Positions 1-34,670 of a stretch of 34,670 bases of DNA are shown here, piece after piece. The stretch is from a virus. The stretch covers positions 1 to 34,670 of the IMG/VR virus record IMGVR_UViG_3300021197_000148. One strand, given 5' to 3'. How positions within the stretch are numbered: the stretch's first letter is position 1; the number at the start of each line of letters is the position of its first letter. The notes under the pieces are model-generated. The model was not told the origin of the DNA. It was given only the letters and a program-made list of their open reading frames with translations, and ran no database searches. The translations under genes were made by a program, and so were the position numbers.

Positions 1-720
1 AGCGTCCTGAACCTCGCCGTCTGATACGTCCAACGGCTGTGCCACATCATCGACCCGGCTGTAGGCCACGTTGCCATCGGCTGGGTTCATCAACGGATAC
101 CAGTCGATGTCTTTGCGGCGTTGCTCAAACTCTTCGACAGCCTGTGCAATGCGTGCCTGTACGCCAGCGTCAGCGTGGTACAGGAACATGCGCAAGGTAG
201 ACCCGCGATAGAGTACACACACCGCGCCCAAGCTTGCACCAGCGCACATCATCTGCGCCTGTAACTGTAGCACGCCGCGATGTGGTGGCGGCGCATCTTC
301 TGGCGCTGCCTGTGTTGTCTTGCATTCCAGCAATAATTTTTCGCCCGTTAGCTGGATTGCGTTTGCCGTGCCGGGGATGATGATGCCCTGCGCGTGGTCT
401 TCTTTTATGAGGCGCGTGCCTGTAGCCATGCCGTCCAGCGATGCTGCAAGGCGCAGCTTGTCATGGAAGAACGCTTGCGCGAAGTCGTTTTCGACATCGA
501 CAAGGCCAAGGCGGCGGGATGCTTCTGCAATAACTGCGCCTTCATGGATATCGCCCCAGCGTGTAAGCTCATTGCCTTCCCACGGCTCCGGCTCTTTGCC
601 AGCATCGCGGTCTATAAACTCTGACAGCAATTCGTTTTGCGTTGCGTATGGTGATTGGCCCATCAACTGCGCGATGCGCGAGGCTGATAGCATGTTGTCA
701 GGTGTAAGTTTTCCGACCAT
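1..720 (-). CDS. YqaJ-type phage exonuclease, N-terminal 240 residues (runs off left edge)
   Basis: This is a predicted double-strand DNA exonuclease of the PD-(D/E)xK superfamily (YqaJ / lambda Exo group), which resects DNA ends for phage recombination. The frame was read directly on the minus strand and is open to base 1. Visible core: LSASRIAQLMG near residues 11-21, WGDIHEG with Glu60, ASLDG with Asp96, LLLECKTT with the catalytic Glu132-x-Lys134 pair, and a following Gln-rich helix (QLQAQM, 152-157). The ATG at 720 is preceded by an AAGGG ribosome site 8 bases away, 13 bases after the GIY-YIG gene. The missing C-terminus appears in frame at the other end of the window (34422-34670), giving 322 residues in total. 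No RecT/Beta/Erf annealing partner is recognised. The fold call is strong; the exact substrate is inferred. Confidence 0.9.
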   Translation of the reverse strand, partial: MVGKLTPDNMLSASRIAQLMGQSPYATQNELLSEFIDRDAGKEPEPWEGNELTRWGDIHEGAVIAEASRRLGLVDVENDFAQAFFHDKLRLAASLDGMATGTRLIKEDHAQGIIIPGTANAIQLTGEKLLLECKTTQAAPEDAPPPHRGVLQLQAQMMCAGASLGAVCVLYRGSTLRMFLYHADAGVQARIAQAVEEFEQRRKDIDWYPLMNPADGNVAYSRVDDVAQPLDVSDGEVQDA

Positions 721-1830: not shown

Positions 1831-2454
1831 TTATGCGTTGATAAGATTACGCACGCTGGATGCGTGCCACTGACCGCCCATTGCGGTTGGTATCTGCTCT
1901 TCATTGAGAGCGGATGCGATGGCGCGTAGGCTCTGACCAGCCTTGCGCAATGCGTTGACAATAGGCATAGCTTGCGGCGCTACCTGTGCGGTGGCGCTGG
2001 CGCGTTGCTTGCCGGTAACTGAACCACCCTTTGCAGGGTCAGGTGAGCCGAGCTTTACGCCACGGCGCTTTGCTGCGGCTAGCGCTGCCTTGGTGCGCTC
2101 TGAGATGCGGCGGCCTTCCCATTCTGCAAAGACAGCGGCCATCTGTAGGAATGTGCGGTCTGCCTCTGGCATGTCGGCGCAAGTGATAGGCACGCCAGCT
2201 TCGAGCAAGCCGGTGATGAAGTGTACGTTACGCGCCAGACGGTCTAGCTTGGCAATAAGCAGTGTCGCGCCTATCTCTTTGGCGTGCGCCAATGCCTTGG
2301 CTAGCTCCGGGCGGTTGGACTTCTTGCCGCTTTCTACTTCTGTGTATTCAGCGACAATATCATAGTGCGCACAGGCGTGCTGTTGAGCCTCAAGGCCAAG
2401 GCCGGATTGGCCCTGACGCTGAGTTGATACGCGGTAATAGACGATGAATTTCAT
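1831..2454 (-). CDS. Small serine recombinase (resolvase/invertase family)
   Basis: A 207-residue site-specific recombinase that would cut and rejoin DNA through a phosphoserine link. Visible are YRVST with Arg8 and catalytic Ser10, the AKLDRLARN block (Asp71, Arg72, Arg75) and the long E-helix ending RRISERTKAAL (115-125). The C-terminal ~65 residues contain a helix-turn-helix-like stretch (SLRAIASALNEEQIP followed by GGQWHASSVRNLI). The protein resembles a family common on alphaproteobacterial chromosomes. It is much shorter than large phage serine integrases, so it may be a resolvase or invertase rather than an integrase. The ATG at 2454 overlaps the upstream stop by one base (TAATG), implying translational coupling. 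No att, res or inversion site could be assigned with confidence; the divergent region at 2713-2805 is the nearest candidate. Confidence 0.92.
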   Translation of the reverse strand: MKFIVYYRVSTQRQGQSGLGLEAQQHACAHYDIVAEYTEVESGKKSNRPELAKALAHAKEIGATLLIAKLDRLARNVHFITGLLEAGVPITCADMPEADRTFLQMAAVFAEWEGRRISERTKAALAAAKRRGVKLGSPDPAKGGSVTGKQRASATAQVAPQAMPIVNALRKAGQSLRAIASALNEEQIPTAMGGQWHASSVRNLINA

Positions 2455-2690
2455 TATGCTACTCCAAATTCTGCCTTGGCCTCTTCCATCATGTAGGCCA
2501 ATTCTTCTTGATATTCGTCAACGCGAGTTTGGTCATCGCCTGTAAGGCGTAGCTTCTGTGCTGGGGTCATCCAGATTTGGTGAACATCTAAATCTGTGTA
2601 GATGTCACCGTCTGCGTTGCGGCGGATGCCAGCAAACTCAGCGTCTGTATACTTAACTTCACGTTCCCAATTAATTTCTGTGTATGTCAT
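2454..2690 (-). CDS. Acidic 78-residue protein of unknown function
   Basis: First gene of the leftward operon. The ATG at 2690 follows an AAGGGAG ribosome site; an upstream in-frame start at 2717 would lie within the operator repeats and is less likely. The product has about 18 Asp/Glu against 8 Lys/Arg (net near -10), no membrane segment and no motif I recognise. Its stop overlaps the recombinase start (TAATG), so the two proteins are probably made in proportion. Because it is first after the divergent promoter it may be the most highly expressed leftward product. A small acidic protein could be an antirepressor, a recombination directionality partner or a DNA mimic, but nothing in the sequence decides this. 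Confidence 0.7.
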   Translation of the reverse strand: MTYTEINWEREVKYTDAEFAGIRRNADGDIYTDLDVHQIWMTPAQKLRLTGDDQTRVDEYQEELAYMMEEAKAEFGVA

Positions 2691-2712
2691 AATCTTAACT
2701 CCCTTTTGGTTA

Positions 2713-2740
2713 ATCAACTGACGGTCAACGTGCCGTCAAC
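2713..2740. promoter_or_regulatory. Three GTTGAC direct repeats at 11-base spacing (candidate operator)
   Basis: On the minus strand GTTGAC occurs at 2740-2735 and 2729-2724, and a near-copy (GTTGAT) at 2718-2713, an exact 11-base period (about one helical turn). The same segment contains an inverted pair TGACGG (2719-2724) / CCGTCA (2733-2738). It lies just downstream of the leftward -10 box, overlapping the predicted transcription start, where a bound repressor would block initiation. Binding by the adjacent ribbon-helix-helix protein is inferred. Confidence 0.55.
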
Positions 2741-2741
2741 T

Positions 2742-2772
2742 ATTATATATCACCTTGCTATCATATCTTCAA
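2742..2772 (-). promoter_or_regulatory. Sigma70-like leftward promoter
   Basis: Reading leftward, TTGAAG (2772-2767) is followed after 19 bases by a perfect TATAAT (2747-2742), or after 17 bases by TATATA (2749-2744). Transcription would start near 2735 and run into the acidic-protein/recombinase/GIY-YIG/YqaJ operon. Inferred from sequence only; its flanking dyads suggest it is regulated. Confidence 0.55.
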
Positions 2773-2786
2773 GGGGTAGATAGCAA
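2755..2786. promoter_or_regulatory. 8-base perfect inverted repeat in the divergent region (candidate operator)
   Basis: TTGCTATC (2755-2762) and GATAGCAA (2779-2786) are perfect inverted copies separated by 16 bases, and flank the -35 box of the leftward promoter. A second, shorter dyad, ATATC-AGGGC-GATAT (2791-2805), overlaps the ribosome-binding region of the ribbon-helix-helix gene, as expected for autoregulation. Alternatively the set of dyads could be a recombination site for the serine recombinase. Confidence 0.5.
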
Positions 2787-2806
2787 AAAAATATCAGGGC
2801 GATATC

Positions 2807-3001
2807 ATGGCAAACACAAAACCAACATTATTGCGGCTCAGAACCAAGACAGTTTTGATGCTGAAAGAGGCGGTCGAGCAGTCGGCGCATCGCTCGATGG
2901 CGTCACTCGCTGACGAGATACTGGCGCAAGAATTAGAAAAGCGTTTGACCAAAGACGGGTCTGACCTAGACCGTGTGATAGCGGCGGCACGCAATGGTTA
3001 A
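2807..3001 (+). CDS. Ribbon-helix-helix (Arc/CopG-like) DNA-binding protein
   Basis: A 64-residue protein with the pattern of a ribbon-helix-helix regulator: a short strand (LLRLRTKTVL, residues 8-17), then two helices (LKEAVEQSAHRSMASLADEI and AQELEKRL) separated by the usual turn before Ser/Met-Ala-Ser. Such proteins act as dimers on operator pairs. It is the first rightward gene and faces the leftward operon across a 116-base gap rich in dyads, the classic arrangement for an autoregulating phage repressor. Its stop overlaps the start of the next gene by 8 bases. The fold is well supported by pattern; its role as a switch repressor is inference. Confidence 0.75.
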   Translation: MANTKPTLLRLRTKTVLMLKEAVEQSAHRSMASLADEILAQELEKRLTKDGSDLDRVIAAARNG

Positions 3002-3431
3002 TCCGCGCACGAAAGGAAGCCAGTACGAGCGCGATGTTCGCAAGCGCTTGCACCTAGAGCTTGGCCTTGAATTTCGCAGGGTGCTGGACCAATGGGCCGA
3101 GGCTGGCTTGCCTGACCTGACCTGTGAGGATGACGCTTTCCCCTTTGTAATAGAATGCAAACGCTACAGGCAGGGCAGCACGTTTGCCTCGCCCAGCCAT
3201 TGGGATCAGGTTTGCGTAGCAGCGGAGAAGGCTGGCAAGATACCAGCGCTGGTCTATAAATTCGATAGACTGCCGGAGCGTTGGCGCGTACCTATCGAGG
3301 CGCTGGCAATGCTGGCCACGTTTGAGCGACAGCCCGGCGATGGATATGATTGGAAGTACGCAGTCGAAATGACGTTTGACGATTTCTGTATGGTAGCAAG
3401 GGAGTTGATGTGCAATGAAACTAGCGAGTGA
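2994..3431 (+). CDS. PD-(D/E)xK nuclease, Holliday-junction-resolvase-like
   Basis: A 145-residue protein with the signature of small Holliday junction resolvase or VRR-type nucleases: NPRTKGSQYERDVRKRL at the N-terminus (Glu12), LPDLT with Asp41, and VIECKR with Glu54-x-Lys56. The C-terminal half has a WKYAVEMTFDDF segment of unknown role. It would cut branched replication or recombination intermediates before packaging, the job done by endonuclease I (gp3) in T7. The start overlaps the regulator gene by 8 bases, and the following small gene overlaps its end by 17, so this is a coupled early operon. Confidence 0.83.
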   Translation: MVNPRTKGSQYERDVRKRLHLELGLEFRRVLDQWAEAGLPDLTCEDDAFPFVIECKRYRQGSTFASPSHWDQVCVAAEKAGKIPALVYKFDRLPERWRVPIEALAMLATFERQPGDGYDWKYAVEMTFDDFCMVARELMCNETSE

Positions 3432-6282: not shown

Positions 6283-6864
6283 ATGAGAAAAGTAAAGAAG
6301 CCTGATGCTACAGCATTGAGGCGAATGATGGGAACCAAGGTGACAAGTGAGGCAACCTATCGAAAGATACAAAACTACCTCACGGAATATGACAGGGTTG
6401 TGTCTGACTATGAGCGCCGGTGGGGTGTGGAGAGATTGCCCAACCTTGTGTCGCCAGAGTTGCGGGATAGGTTCTGGCAACAGATGGATAAGCTCAACGA
6501 TGCTATCCACCGTGATGCGGCGGTAGATGTAGAACATCATGTGGCAGTGACCTTGCGTGCGTATGGTGCGCTGGAGAAGGAAGCCATCGCGTTGGGTGGT
6601 AAAGAGATAGGCATGGATGTGTGGACTGCGGATGCTGATGGCAAGGTGATAGCCATCGCGCGTGATGAGCAAGCGGTTACGCACATCAAGAACGACATGC
6701 CTGACGCGCTGGTGTATTGTGTGCAAGAGGTGGCGGTGATACTGGCCAAGTGGTCAGAGCAAGCGCCGGTTGTTGCTGAAGTCAAAGACATGTTTCCCGG
6801 TGCAGTGGTGAGTGACGTTAAACCAACATTAAAGGACAAGCTCGATGACGAAATCCCTTTCTGA
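6283..6864 (+). CDS. Unknown replication-region protein with an SSB-like C-terminal tip
   Basis: A 193-residue protein with no recognised domain. The ATG at 6283 follows AAGGGTAAAGG; the frame stays open upstream to 6214, but that region holds the inverted repeats. The N-terminus is basic (MRKVKKPDATALRRMM). The middle is mostly helical with a possible coiled region (RFWQQMDKLNDAI). The last residues are KLDDEIPF, nearly identical to the acidic DDDIPF tip with which bacterial SSB recruits host repair and replication proteins. This suggests it binds the same pockets, either as an SSB-like DNA binder or as a mimic that captures host replisome factors. Its tip codons overlap the start of the next gene by 20 bases. 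Function otherwise unknown. Confidence 0.7.
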   Translation: MRKVKKPDATALRRMMGTKVTSEATYRKIQNYLTEYDRVVSDYERRWGVERLPNLVSPELRDRFWQQMDKLNDAIHRDAAVDVEHHVAVTLRAYGALEKEAIALGGKEIGMDVWTADADGKVIAIARDEQAVTHIKNDMPDALVYCVQEVAVILAKWSEQAPVVAEVKDMFPGAVVSDVKPTLKDKLDDEIPF

Positions 6865-7519
6865 GAATAAGCGCCCGTACAGTGTCATGCCAATGCGTGC
6901 CTTTGCAGACCGTAAGCTCAAAGAACGCGAGATAAGGGTGCTAGGAGCGCTGTGTGCGTTCGTGAACCGTGCTGGGGTGTGTTACCCTAGTATGGAAACA
7001 CTTACGCATGTGTGCGGCTATGGTGAGCGTAAAACCATATATGACGCAGTGAAGGGATTAAAGCAACGTGGTTATGTGCGCCAGCTTAATCCAAAGGACT
7101 ATCAGGTAGGCGTTAGCGGGTGGAAAACAAACAGGTATCAAGTGCTGTGGAAAGGTGACGAAGCCCTGCCATCGCAAGAGGACATACTCACTGCCAAAGC
7201 GTTGCAAGTGCGTGCAGACCAAGATGACAACCTCACAGAAGATAAAGGGGGTCTGGGGGATGCACAATCAGTCGGTGACGCGCACGCTGGAGAGCTATGC
7301 CATGCCTATCTGCGTGCCGTCCAACAGGCGACAGGACAGGTGAGGCTGTACGATAATGAGATAGCGCACGCACGCCGGCTGGCATTGCGTGAGGTATCGG
7401 CTGACGATGTACGCGCTGCCACGCTGGCTGTGTGTGACCAAGCAATAGAACGAAGGGCAGGGGTGCCTGCGCTAGCAGATATCGTGCGGTACTTTGATGT
7501 ACAGGAGAACAAAGGTTGA
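6845..7519 (+). CDS. Winged-helix replication-initiator-like protein
   Basis: A 224-residue protein with an N-terminal winged helix-turn-helix (about 20-85: LKEREIRVLGALCAFVNRAG, CYPSMETLTHVCGYGERKTIYDAVKGLKQRGYV), the pattern of phage O-like replication proteins and HTH_36 domains. The C-terminal third (about 140-220) is helical and contains LRLYDNEIAHARRLALREVSADD-like sequence with no catalytic motif. Family members bind origin DNA or recruit helicase. Here the gene follows the primase-helicase and the SSB-tip protein and is followed by a GC-rich gap, so an initiator role is reasonable. The ATG at 6845 has AAAGGA 9 bases upstream and lies within the end of the previous gene. A transcriptional regulator is the alternative. 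Confidence 0.72.
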   Translation: MTKSLSENKRPYSVMPMRAFADRKLKEREIRVLGALCAFVNRAGVCYPSMETLTHVCGYGERKTIYDAVKGLKQRGYVRQLNPKDYQVGVSGWKTNRYQVLWKGDEALPSQEDILTAKALQVRADQDDNLTEDKGGLGDAQSVGDAHAGELCHAYLRAVQQATGQVRLYDNEIAHARRLALREVSADDVRAATLAVCDQAIERRAGVPALADIVRYFDVQENKG

Positions 7520-32323: not shown

Positions 32324-32764
32324 ATGCTTGCCGAGCTTGCCGCCGCCAACGCCGCTTTTCAGGTGGTCAAGCAATTTGTGCAGAACGGGCGCGAGATTGC
32401 AGACTGCGCAGACAAGGTCGCCACATACGTCAACGCGACTGAGGATTTGCGCCGCAAGGCAGAAAAGAAAAAGCGGAGCCCCTTTGCATCCAACGACCTC
32501 GAAGAATTTATGCATCTGGAAAAGCTCAAGCAACAAGAAGAAGAGCTAAAGCAGCTAATGATCTGGCACGGGAGGCCCAACTTGTGGACAGATTGGCTAA
32601 ACTATCAGGCGGTAGCGCGCAAGAATAGACAGGCGGCTATCGCTGCCCAGCGCAAGCGCAATAGACAAATAATCGAAGTCATAACAATAGCCCTTCTTAT
32701 CATCGCAGGGTTTGTAGGGCTTGCCATGCTTGTGTGGTGGATGGTCTACCTGAAGGGGCTATAG
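32324..32764 (+). CDS. Coiled-coil protein with C-terminal membrane anchor, 146 residues
   Basis: Recognisable as a protein often found in marine podoviruses. N-terminal LAELAAANAAFQVVKQFVQNGREIADCADKVATYVNATEDLRRKAEKK is helical. Next comes DLEEFMHLEKLKQQEEELKQLMIWHGRPNLWTDW (about 63-96), and finally one membrane span (about 120-140: ITIALLIIAGFVGLAMLVWWMV). It sits between two holin-type genes and the endolysin, so a role in lysis control or spanin-like disruption is possible, though no lipobox partner is seen. The stop overlaps the GTG of the next gene (TAGTG). Confidence 0.7.
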   Translation: MLAELAAANAAFQVVKQFVQNGREIADCADKVATYVNATEDLRRKAEKKKRSPFASNDLEEFMHLEKLKQQEEELKQLMIWHGRPNLWTDWLNYQAVARKNRQAAIAAQRKRNRQIIEVITIALLIIAGFVGLAMLVWWMVYLKGL

Positions 32765-33183
32765 TGTCTGGTGAAACAAGGACAGGGCTGATAGGTGAAC
32801 ACATCGCTTGCGCCACAGTGTTGAGCATGCCGGGCATAATGGGCGCGGCTATGGCGCAGCAAGATAAGATAGACCTGCTGGCGTGGGATGATGTCGGCTA
32901 TCTGCGGATCCAAGTAAAGTCGCGCAACATACTGCCAGAGGCTGACGGGCGCACGCCGTCCTATCATTTTAACTATGGCATGGGGCTAACTAAAAAAAAG
33001 GCAGAGCGCGGTTCGTATGATATAATAGCGTCAGTAGCTATTGACCGGCGCAAGGTAATATTCACCGCGCTGGACTGTGTCGGCACAGTGAGCAAGCGCA
33101 TTAGAGCGCGCCGGTTTGACGACCCGGACGTTGAGATAGATAGCTGGCGACATGCGCTGGCGGTTGTGAGAGGTGACATATGA
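32764..33183 (+). CDS. PD-(D/E)xK nuclease-like protein in the lysis cassette
   Basis: A 139-residue protein starting at GTG 32764. It has TGLIGEHIACATVL (Glu12), KIDLLAW (Asp37) and LRIQVKSR (Gln50-x-Lys52), the order and spacing of a PD-(D/E)xK core in which the middle acidic residue is replaced by Gln, as in several small resolvase-like families. The following PSYHFNYGMGLTKKKAERGSYDIIASVAIDRRKVIF is also typical of them. It is distinct from the nuclease at 2994. Expressed late, it may resolve DNA branches before packaging or attack host DNA. The overlap with the endolysin (ATGA) indicates coupling. Confidence 0.75.
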   Translation: MSGETRTGLIGEHIACATVLSMPGIMGAAMAQQDKIDLLAWDDVGYLRIQVKSRNILPEADGRTPSYHFNYGMGLTKKKAERGSYDIIASVAIDRRKVIFTALDCVGTVSKRIRARRFDDPDVEIDSWRHALAVVRGDI

Positions 33184-34224: not shown

Positions 34225-34429
34225 GTACTATCTCCAGCGTGTGTCTCTGGCCGTAGGTTTTTCGCAATATGCCCCGGTCGCACATAATCTCAACGTGCTT
34301 GCCGATAGCTTGCTTGGAGACGTTCAGGGTGGCCGCTAGCTGTGTGTAGCTAGGAACATACCCCTGCGCCTCAGACAGCGTCTGTATGGCGCTCAGAACG
34401 CGATGCTGGGCTGGTGTCATTCTATACAT
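34211..34429 (-). CDS. LexA-type winged-helix DNA-binding protein, 72 residues
   Basis: The MTPAQHRVLSAIQTLSEAQGYVPSYTQLAATLNVSKQAIGKHVEIMCDRGILRKTYGQRHTLEIV pattern is that of the LexA N-terminal domain: helix, recognition helix after ATLNVSKQAI, wing at KTYGQRHTLE. It lacks the autoprotease domain, so it could not self-cleave in response to DNA damage. ATG 34429 is preferred over TTG 34435 and ATG 34420; it overlaps the exonuclease stop by 8 bases. Being last in the leftward operon, it probably regulates phage or host genes. Possible use of LexA-type sites is inference. Confidence 0.8.
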   Translation of the reverse strand: MYRMTPAQHRVLSAIQTLSEAQGYVPSYTQLAATLNVSKQAIGKHVEIMCDRGILRKTYGQRHTLEIVRGAQ

Positions 34430-34670
34430 TGCCAAGCTCTTTCACAGTTAAAGCATTCTGACGCACGCGCATGGCTGGCTTCGCTGGCACCACCTTCTCT
34501 TGCGTAGCCTTCATGTTACGCATGCCCCATTTAACGATAACCCTTTTGCCATCTACCACGGTGTTTGCTTCCTCATGATTGCCCATATAGTCTTTGATGA
34601 CCGTTTCCGCGTCAGCGATGATCTGGTCGCACTCTTTTTTTGCACGCTTCGCCTCAAGCAAAGCCTCGAT
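34422..34670 (-). CDS. YqaJ-type phage exonuclease, C-terminal 82 residues (enters from right edge)
   Basis: Open at base 34670 and ending at TAG 34422. It reads IEALLEAKRAKKECDQIIADAETVIKDYMGNHEEANTVV and then VIVKWGMRNMKATQEKV: a helical lysine-rich arm and a strand-rich end (an xVxW segment), as found at the C-terminus of YqaJ-family nucleases. A TTG at 34661 could be called a start, but the frame extends to the edge. Joined head to tail with the minus-strand frame ending at base 1, codon phase is kept (240 + 82 residues + stop = 969 bases). It is therefore best annotated as the rest of that gene. Confidence 0.82.
   Translation of the reverse strand: MEALLEAKRAKKECDQIIADAETVIKDYMGNHEEANTVVDGKRVIVKWGMRNMKATQEKVVPAKPAMRVRQNALTVKELGNV

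Follow-up and report, generated by a model that had tools for sequence, protein, structure and literature searches.

The record IMGVR_UViG_3300021197_000148 holds 34,670 bases of one virus, and its whole length was taken as the window of this analysis. The reading frame of a YqaJ-type exonuclease at the start of the record resumed at its other end as a single gene cut by the record ends, and because this gene spans both ends, the record appears to be circularly permuted and near-complete. Its terminase, connector and tail-tube genes resembled those of the OM43 phage MEP301. Positions 2691-2806 lie between two gene blocks (Table 1). The leftward block comprises a 78-aa orphan, a serine recombinase, a homing endonuclease, the YqaJ exonuclease and a LexA-like winged-helix protein; the rightward block comprises a ribbon-helix-helix (RHH) protein, a PD-(D/E)XK endonuclease, an SSB-like protein, a primase-helicase, an O-like protein and the terminase. 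The initial annotation had set this stretch between the RHH gene and a recombinase operon; the arrangement is divergent, but the 78-aa gene intervenes before the recombinase. The homing endonuclease, of the GIY-YIG type (734-1696), lies between the serine recombinase and the exonuclease, and a related gene was found there in few relatives.

Table 1. Genes and proposed regulatory elements of the control region and its two flanking blocks
Feature	Position	Strand	Remark
YqaJ-type exonuclease, main part	1-720	-	continues across record ends
Small serine recombinase, 207 aa	1831-2454	-	accessory to system
78-aa orphan protein	2454-2690	-	opens leftward operon; hypervariable slot in relatives
Three TCAAC repeats, 11-bp period	2714-2740 (2714-2718, 2725-2729, 2736-2740)	+	proposed winged-helix operator
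Leftward promoter	2744-2772	-	-35 TTGAAG (2772-2767), 17-bp spacer, -10 TATATA (2749-2744); from sequence and conservation
O1, proposed RHH operator dyad ATATCA-CCT-TGCTAT	2747-2761	.	between leftward -10 and -35
Single proposed RHH half-site AGATAGCA (reverse complement TGCTATCT)	2778-2785	-	
O2, proposed second RHH operator ATATCA-GGG-CGATAT	2791-2805	.	ribosome site in centre
RHH (Arc-like) regulator, 64 aa	2807-3001	+	DNA-contact strand KPTLLRLR
PD-(D/E)XK endonuclease (PDDEXK_15 / RusA-like)	2994-3431	+	overlaps RHH gene
O-like initiator	6845-7519		
LexA-like winged-helix protein, 74 aa	34211-34435	-	closes leftward operon; proposed second regulator
YqaJ-type exonuclease, C-terminal part	34422-34670	-	

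Positions 2691-2806 of this marine phage are a genuine divergent control region, as had been annotated; the region is widely conserved, serves two early gene blocks and is likely to switch transcription between their operons. Comparison of about 100 relatives indicates that it holds separate sites for two small phage regulators. The leftward TATAAT reported earlier is present at 2747-2742 and overlaps TATATA, which is the better -10 element given its 17-bp spacer to TTGAAG. In most families of relatives, the leftward promoter was of the type TTGTAA/TTGTAC-17-TATATA. No convincing rightward promoter was recognised; the weak candidates were CTGACG-17-TATTAT and, by eye, TTGCTA-16-TAGATA.

The spacer of the leftward promoter carries a dyad, ATATCA-N3-TG(A/C)TAT, which was the best-conserved dyad among relatives. 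Allowing at most one mismatch, ATATCA-N3-TGATAT occurred in the whole window only at 2747 and 2791, and the two copies are 44 bp apart, that is 4 x 11. The second copy is the dyad at the ribosome site that the initial annotation had described without seeing that it repeats the spacer dyad. It ends just 5' of the RHH start codon, and was retained in the close group of relatives, partly in relatives L022 and L030, and lost in L020. The perfect dyad was found in six relatives (L030, L031, L032, L034, L037 and L131), where its centre falls within the spacer of a promoter of the TTGTAA-17-TATATA type. The perfect 8-bp inverted repeat noted at 2755-2762/2779-2786 was present and had no counterpart in shuffled sequences, but it was not conserved as a pair: in relatives the left arm TTGCTATC becomes TTGATATC or TCGATATC, and the right arm usually keeps GATAGCAA. 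It consists of the right half of O1 and the single half-site, standing face to face. As a unit it was rejected, for its arms drift mostly without compensation (one compensated case, L008). All 8-bp boxes of the region (2712-2719, 2723-2730, 2734-2741, 2745-2752, 2756-2763, 2778-2785, 2789-2796 and 2800-2807) lie on one 11-bp lattice in the window, and some of the joins are shifted by 1-2 bp in relatives. Operators of FitA have arms of the TTGCTATCA type; this was kept out of the evidence.

Starting from the endonuclease beside the RHH gene, relatives numbering several hundred were reached (overlapping sets of 444, 581 and 327 hits), from which 105 non-redundant upstream regions were obtained after removal of duplicates. 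Across these 105, the variable base of the half-site TG-N-T tracked one residue of the RHH protein, residue 8, which stands two before the first Arg of the LRLR core: His went with G, Met with T and Leu with A. For the base beside the -35, His-G was found in 17/19, Met-T in 15/15, Gln-G in 2/2, Leu-A in 10/15 and Leu-C in 3/15; L239 and L318 were exceptions to the rule. The operators were correspondingly of the types ACCA-N3-TGGT (His8), TGTT (Met8) and TGAT or TGCT (Leu8). A perfect ACCA-N3-TGGT dyad occurred in 15 of the 21 His relatives compared with none of the 84 others, against a background of 0.3% per 130 nt. Among all RHH columns, position 8 carried the most normalised information on the half-site base. 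Several phages whose endonucleases were 90-97% identical (L162, L194, L029/L213) had Met, His and Leu RHH proteins with correspondingly different operators; RHH protein and operator therefore move together. On the endonuclease tree, the RHH class changed about 11 times, with His on several separate branches, and residue and base changed together on the same branch with modest significance (P=0.03, Fitch parsimony), so that the raw association of residue and base is partly due to shared ancestry. Since the half-site base follows the residue, the RHH protein probably binds the half-sites of the N3 dyad, and the covariation supports reading of operator bases by its N-terminal strand. The protein, earlier named as the regulator of this region, is thus very probably one of its regulators.

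The window RHH protein had no match to any Pfam, PHROG or NCBIfam model, and searches of PDB sequences gave a weak match to 2kke only. Structure prediction of the monomer (pLDDT 84.8) gave an extended N-terminus and two helices, 13-25 and 31-49, and its best fold matches in the PDB were mostly RHH antitoxins, PrpA, ParD2 and ParD1, with Z of about 5, below the trust limit. One family member, L150, matched the Arc-like repressor phrog_3180 (E=2.7e-9). With matches that score low, the monomer prediction, the PHROG match of L150 and the covariation of strand and DNA together suggest that the 64-aa protein belongs to the RHH class. For the RHH gene of L014/L051/L128, one relative showed an early stop (MANTKPTL followed by a stop codon) with the remaining frame intact.

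The three GTTGAC-type repeats at an 11-base period that had been described earlier were found as TCAAC (GTTGA), and they lie over the predicted leftward start site and the bases transcribed first. The exact triple has no second occurrence in the genome. Related phages were searched for the repeats, as the initial annotation had proposed; the close relatives comprised 37 viral contigs with an RHH relative, or 45 with an alignment query. The spacing was kept with drift of the motif: TCAAC/TCAAC/TAAAC, TCAAT/TCAAG/TCAAG, TTACC/TTATC/TTACC and TCTAC/TCGGT/TCTAT were all observed, and across these variants the RHH contact strand KPTLLRLR was constant. Across 50 leader clusters, the excess at lag 11 reached z=7.1. 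A scan with the TCAA-array DNA pattern returned the known relatives and two apparently unrelated contigs, L113 and L120. A leader hairpin, TGACGG..CCGTCA, was also noticed, with one compensatory change between L020 and L021 (GTAGG/CCTAC vs GTGGG/CCCAC).

The leader sequence followed the winged-helix protein of the leftward block (partial Mantel r=0.59 vs 0.26 for RHH, where RHH and the neighbouring endonuclease were controlled for), whereas the spacer sequence followed the RHH protein (partial r 0.32 vs 0.21 for winged helix, with control for the neighbouring gene); the separation was clear for the leader and weaker for the spacer. The winged-helix gene was present in 20/20 records tested and adjoined YqaJ wherever its position was mapped. 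Its 74-aa product matched PF01726, the LexA-like winged-helix domain, with 28.9 bits against a curated cut-off of 23.7; the C-terminal S24 protease domain of LexA is absent, the protein being too short for one. Natural recombinants separated the two proteins. A single winged-helix class, with the TAVRFQ helix, was combined with Met, His or Phe RHH proteins and matching half-sites, and its leaders were closely similar (TTACTAG..AATAAC); conversely, the same RHH strand occurred with differing winged helices and leaders. In the TAVRFQ class an 11-bp repeat is not clearly present, and this geometry is therefore not universal.

These results bear on a reading with a single regulator, in which an RHH filament would extend over the whole 11-bp lattice, the TCAAC boxes would be its weaker sites and the winged-helix protein would act elsewhere. 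Some RHH repressors do bind in arrays, and all boxes of the window, TCAAC included, share one lattice. Against this, TCAAC drifts to TTACC, TTAAC, TCTAC or TTCTA among relatives with one and the same RHH contact strand, the leader follows the winged helix, and the join between the two arrays shifts by 1-2 bp. We consider the single regulator unlikely. Binding of the 11-bp repeats by the RHH protein, as had been expected, was accordingly not supported: the repeats follow the winged helix, which the initial annotation had not connected with this region, and the RHH protein follows the N3 dyad, and RHH as reader of the repeats is disfavoured.

It is very unlikely that the region is the true lysis/lysogeny switch of a temperate phage, in which the RHH and winged-helix proteins would oppose each other as repressors and the serine recombinase would be the integrase. 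Such a switch would agree with the divergent promoters, the two regulators and the presence in the leftward operon of a recombinase whose catalytic motifs are intact by eye; the 207-aa recombinase, however, is resolvase/invertase-like. No tyrosine integrase (PF00589) was present in any of 20 related records (0/20), and neither RHH and endonuclease relatives nor integrated copies detectable through them were found among 84,980 genomes of bacteria and archaea, within the sensitivity of the search tool. The serine recombinase was not detected in the L067-L074 lineage, whose divergent control region keeps its layout and promoter type. For cultured relatives, no convincing integrase was reported (PMC8024684; PMC12629253). 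The genetic switch of lysis/lysogeny type that the initial annotation had expected is not supported, because tyrosine integrase and relatives in bacterial genomes were lacking in these searches and the recombinase was undetected in one lineage; negative searches are not proof against it.

Slightly less probable still is that the O-like initiator binds the 11-bp repeats as iterons of a replication origin. The region is AT-rich and lies between the replication and recombination operons, and a related winged helix is present in the O-like protein; but close relatives with two distinct O-like recognition regions (GERKTIYDAV and AERKSILEAM) carry the same TCAAC array, which disfavours this initiator as reader of the repeats. 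Least probable of all is a toxin-antitoxin pair of the RHH protein and the overlapping PD-(D/E)XK gene, with the dyads serving ordinary antitoxin autoregulation: the genes overlap and RHH antitoxins are the nearest solved folds, but the nuclease matches phage endonuclease/RusA-like resolvase families and the main operator is located within the opposing promoter.

The reading that we favour, and regard as probable, is a control region shared by two divergent early operons and acted on by two repressors that the phage encodes, each at its own operators. The RHH protein, from the first gene of the rightward replication operon, would bind TG(A/C)TATC half-sites as paired dimers; on O1, the dimers would lie across the -10 and spacer of the leftward promoter and block it, and on O2 they would cover the ribosome site and start codon of the RHH gene itself and so limit its own operon. 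The winged-helix protein, from the last gene of the leftward recombination operon, would bind the direct repeats, 11 bp apart, that cover the leftward start site, and as it accumulated, the leftward operon would be shut off by feedback. The leftward block may thus be expressed first and then braked from both sides. The operators, their conservation and the regulator that each follows were obtained by comparison, from which we infer binding, timing and repression rather than activation, the direction of action being taken solely from operator position.

The gene directly behind the leftward promoter (slot 1; 2454-2690 in the window) varies across L001-L324 while the control region and RHH gene are conserved; about 84 non-redundant small proteins were counted over the 105 control regions. 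Many unrelated slot-1 and slot-2 leftward genes end in a GC-rich hairpin whose loop contains the stop codon (AAGGCGGCGGCC-TAA-CGGCCCCGCC), for example in L157, L158, L184 and L245; it is absent from the window. The arms of this hairpin vary with compensation, and the proteins from hairpin-ended genes end in AAA; a C-terminal Ala was found in 61/84 slot-1 proteins vs 12/144 rightward genes. The hairpin resembles a junction at which gene cassettes are exchanged.

A broader proposal, possible but held tentatively, is that the region is modular and widespread in seemingly lytic marine phages: each repressor would travel with its matching operator, the two halves would be exchanged independently beside a hypervariable cargo slot, and the RHH protein would follow a one-residue/one-base code (His-G, Met-T, Leu-A/C). 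If true, such a region would give regulatory, possibly superinfection-immunity, types without lysogeny. No paper on transcriptional control in this group of marine phages was found in the literature. The comparison turns the dyads into a testable model of which protein reads which site, and the natural variants predict a shift of specificity among TGAT, TGGT and TGTT when RHH residue 8 is altered. A further question it brings up is why two repressors should be kept, and exchanged between lineages along with their operators, by phages in which integration genes are not detectable.

Several known systems resemble parts of this arrangement. The Arc repressor of P22 acts at the divergent immI operator, and Arc-type dimers stand about 11 bp apart. 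Here, too, a small phage RHH repressor is proposed for an operator in a divergent control region, and one member of its family matches the Arc-like PHROG; unlike in P22, there is no antirepressor and no sign of lysogeny, a second, winged-helix regulator is proposed, and O2 lies over the RHH start codon. The 74-aa protein shares with LexA the PF01726 domain above the Pfam cut-off, but has no protease domain, and the sites proposed for it are repeated in tandem and in direct orientation every 11 bp, not arranged as an inverted pair. PhoB/OmpR proteins use pho-box type 11-bp direct repeats; repeats of this geometry would also result from winged helices stacked head to tail every 11 bp, although the 74-aa protein is not a response regulator and is of a different fold family. 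In lambda, cI and Cro form a divergent switch in which two regulators from divergent operons act on one intergenic region. The regulators of both divergent operons likewise would meet on one intergenic region here, but with a separate operator for each protein, and no integration functions were found. MEP301 has related terminase and virion genes and a serine recombinase beside YqaJ, but its RHH-like gene lies elsewhere in the operon: in this phage (L077) the hypothetical protein gp52 (32729-32890) is RHH-like with a KPFLVRL strand, matches RHH_1 below the cut-off (E=0.0035) and is not the first of its operon. Although their RHH and promoter sequences are very different, the roseophages CRP-811, CRP-821 and CRP-406 have a leftward block, a divergent gap, a 53-aa RHH-like gene and a PD-(D/E)XK endonuclease; in CRP-811 and CRP-821 the leftward block includes an HTH gene.
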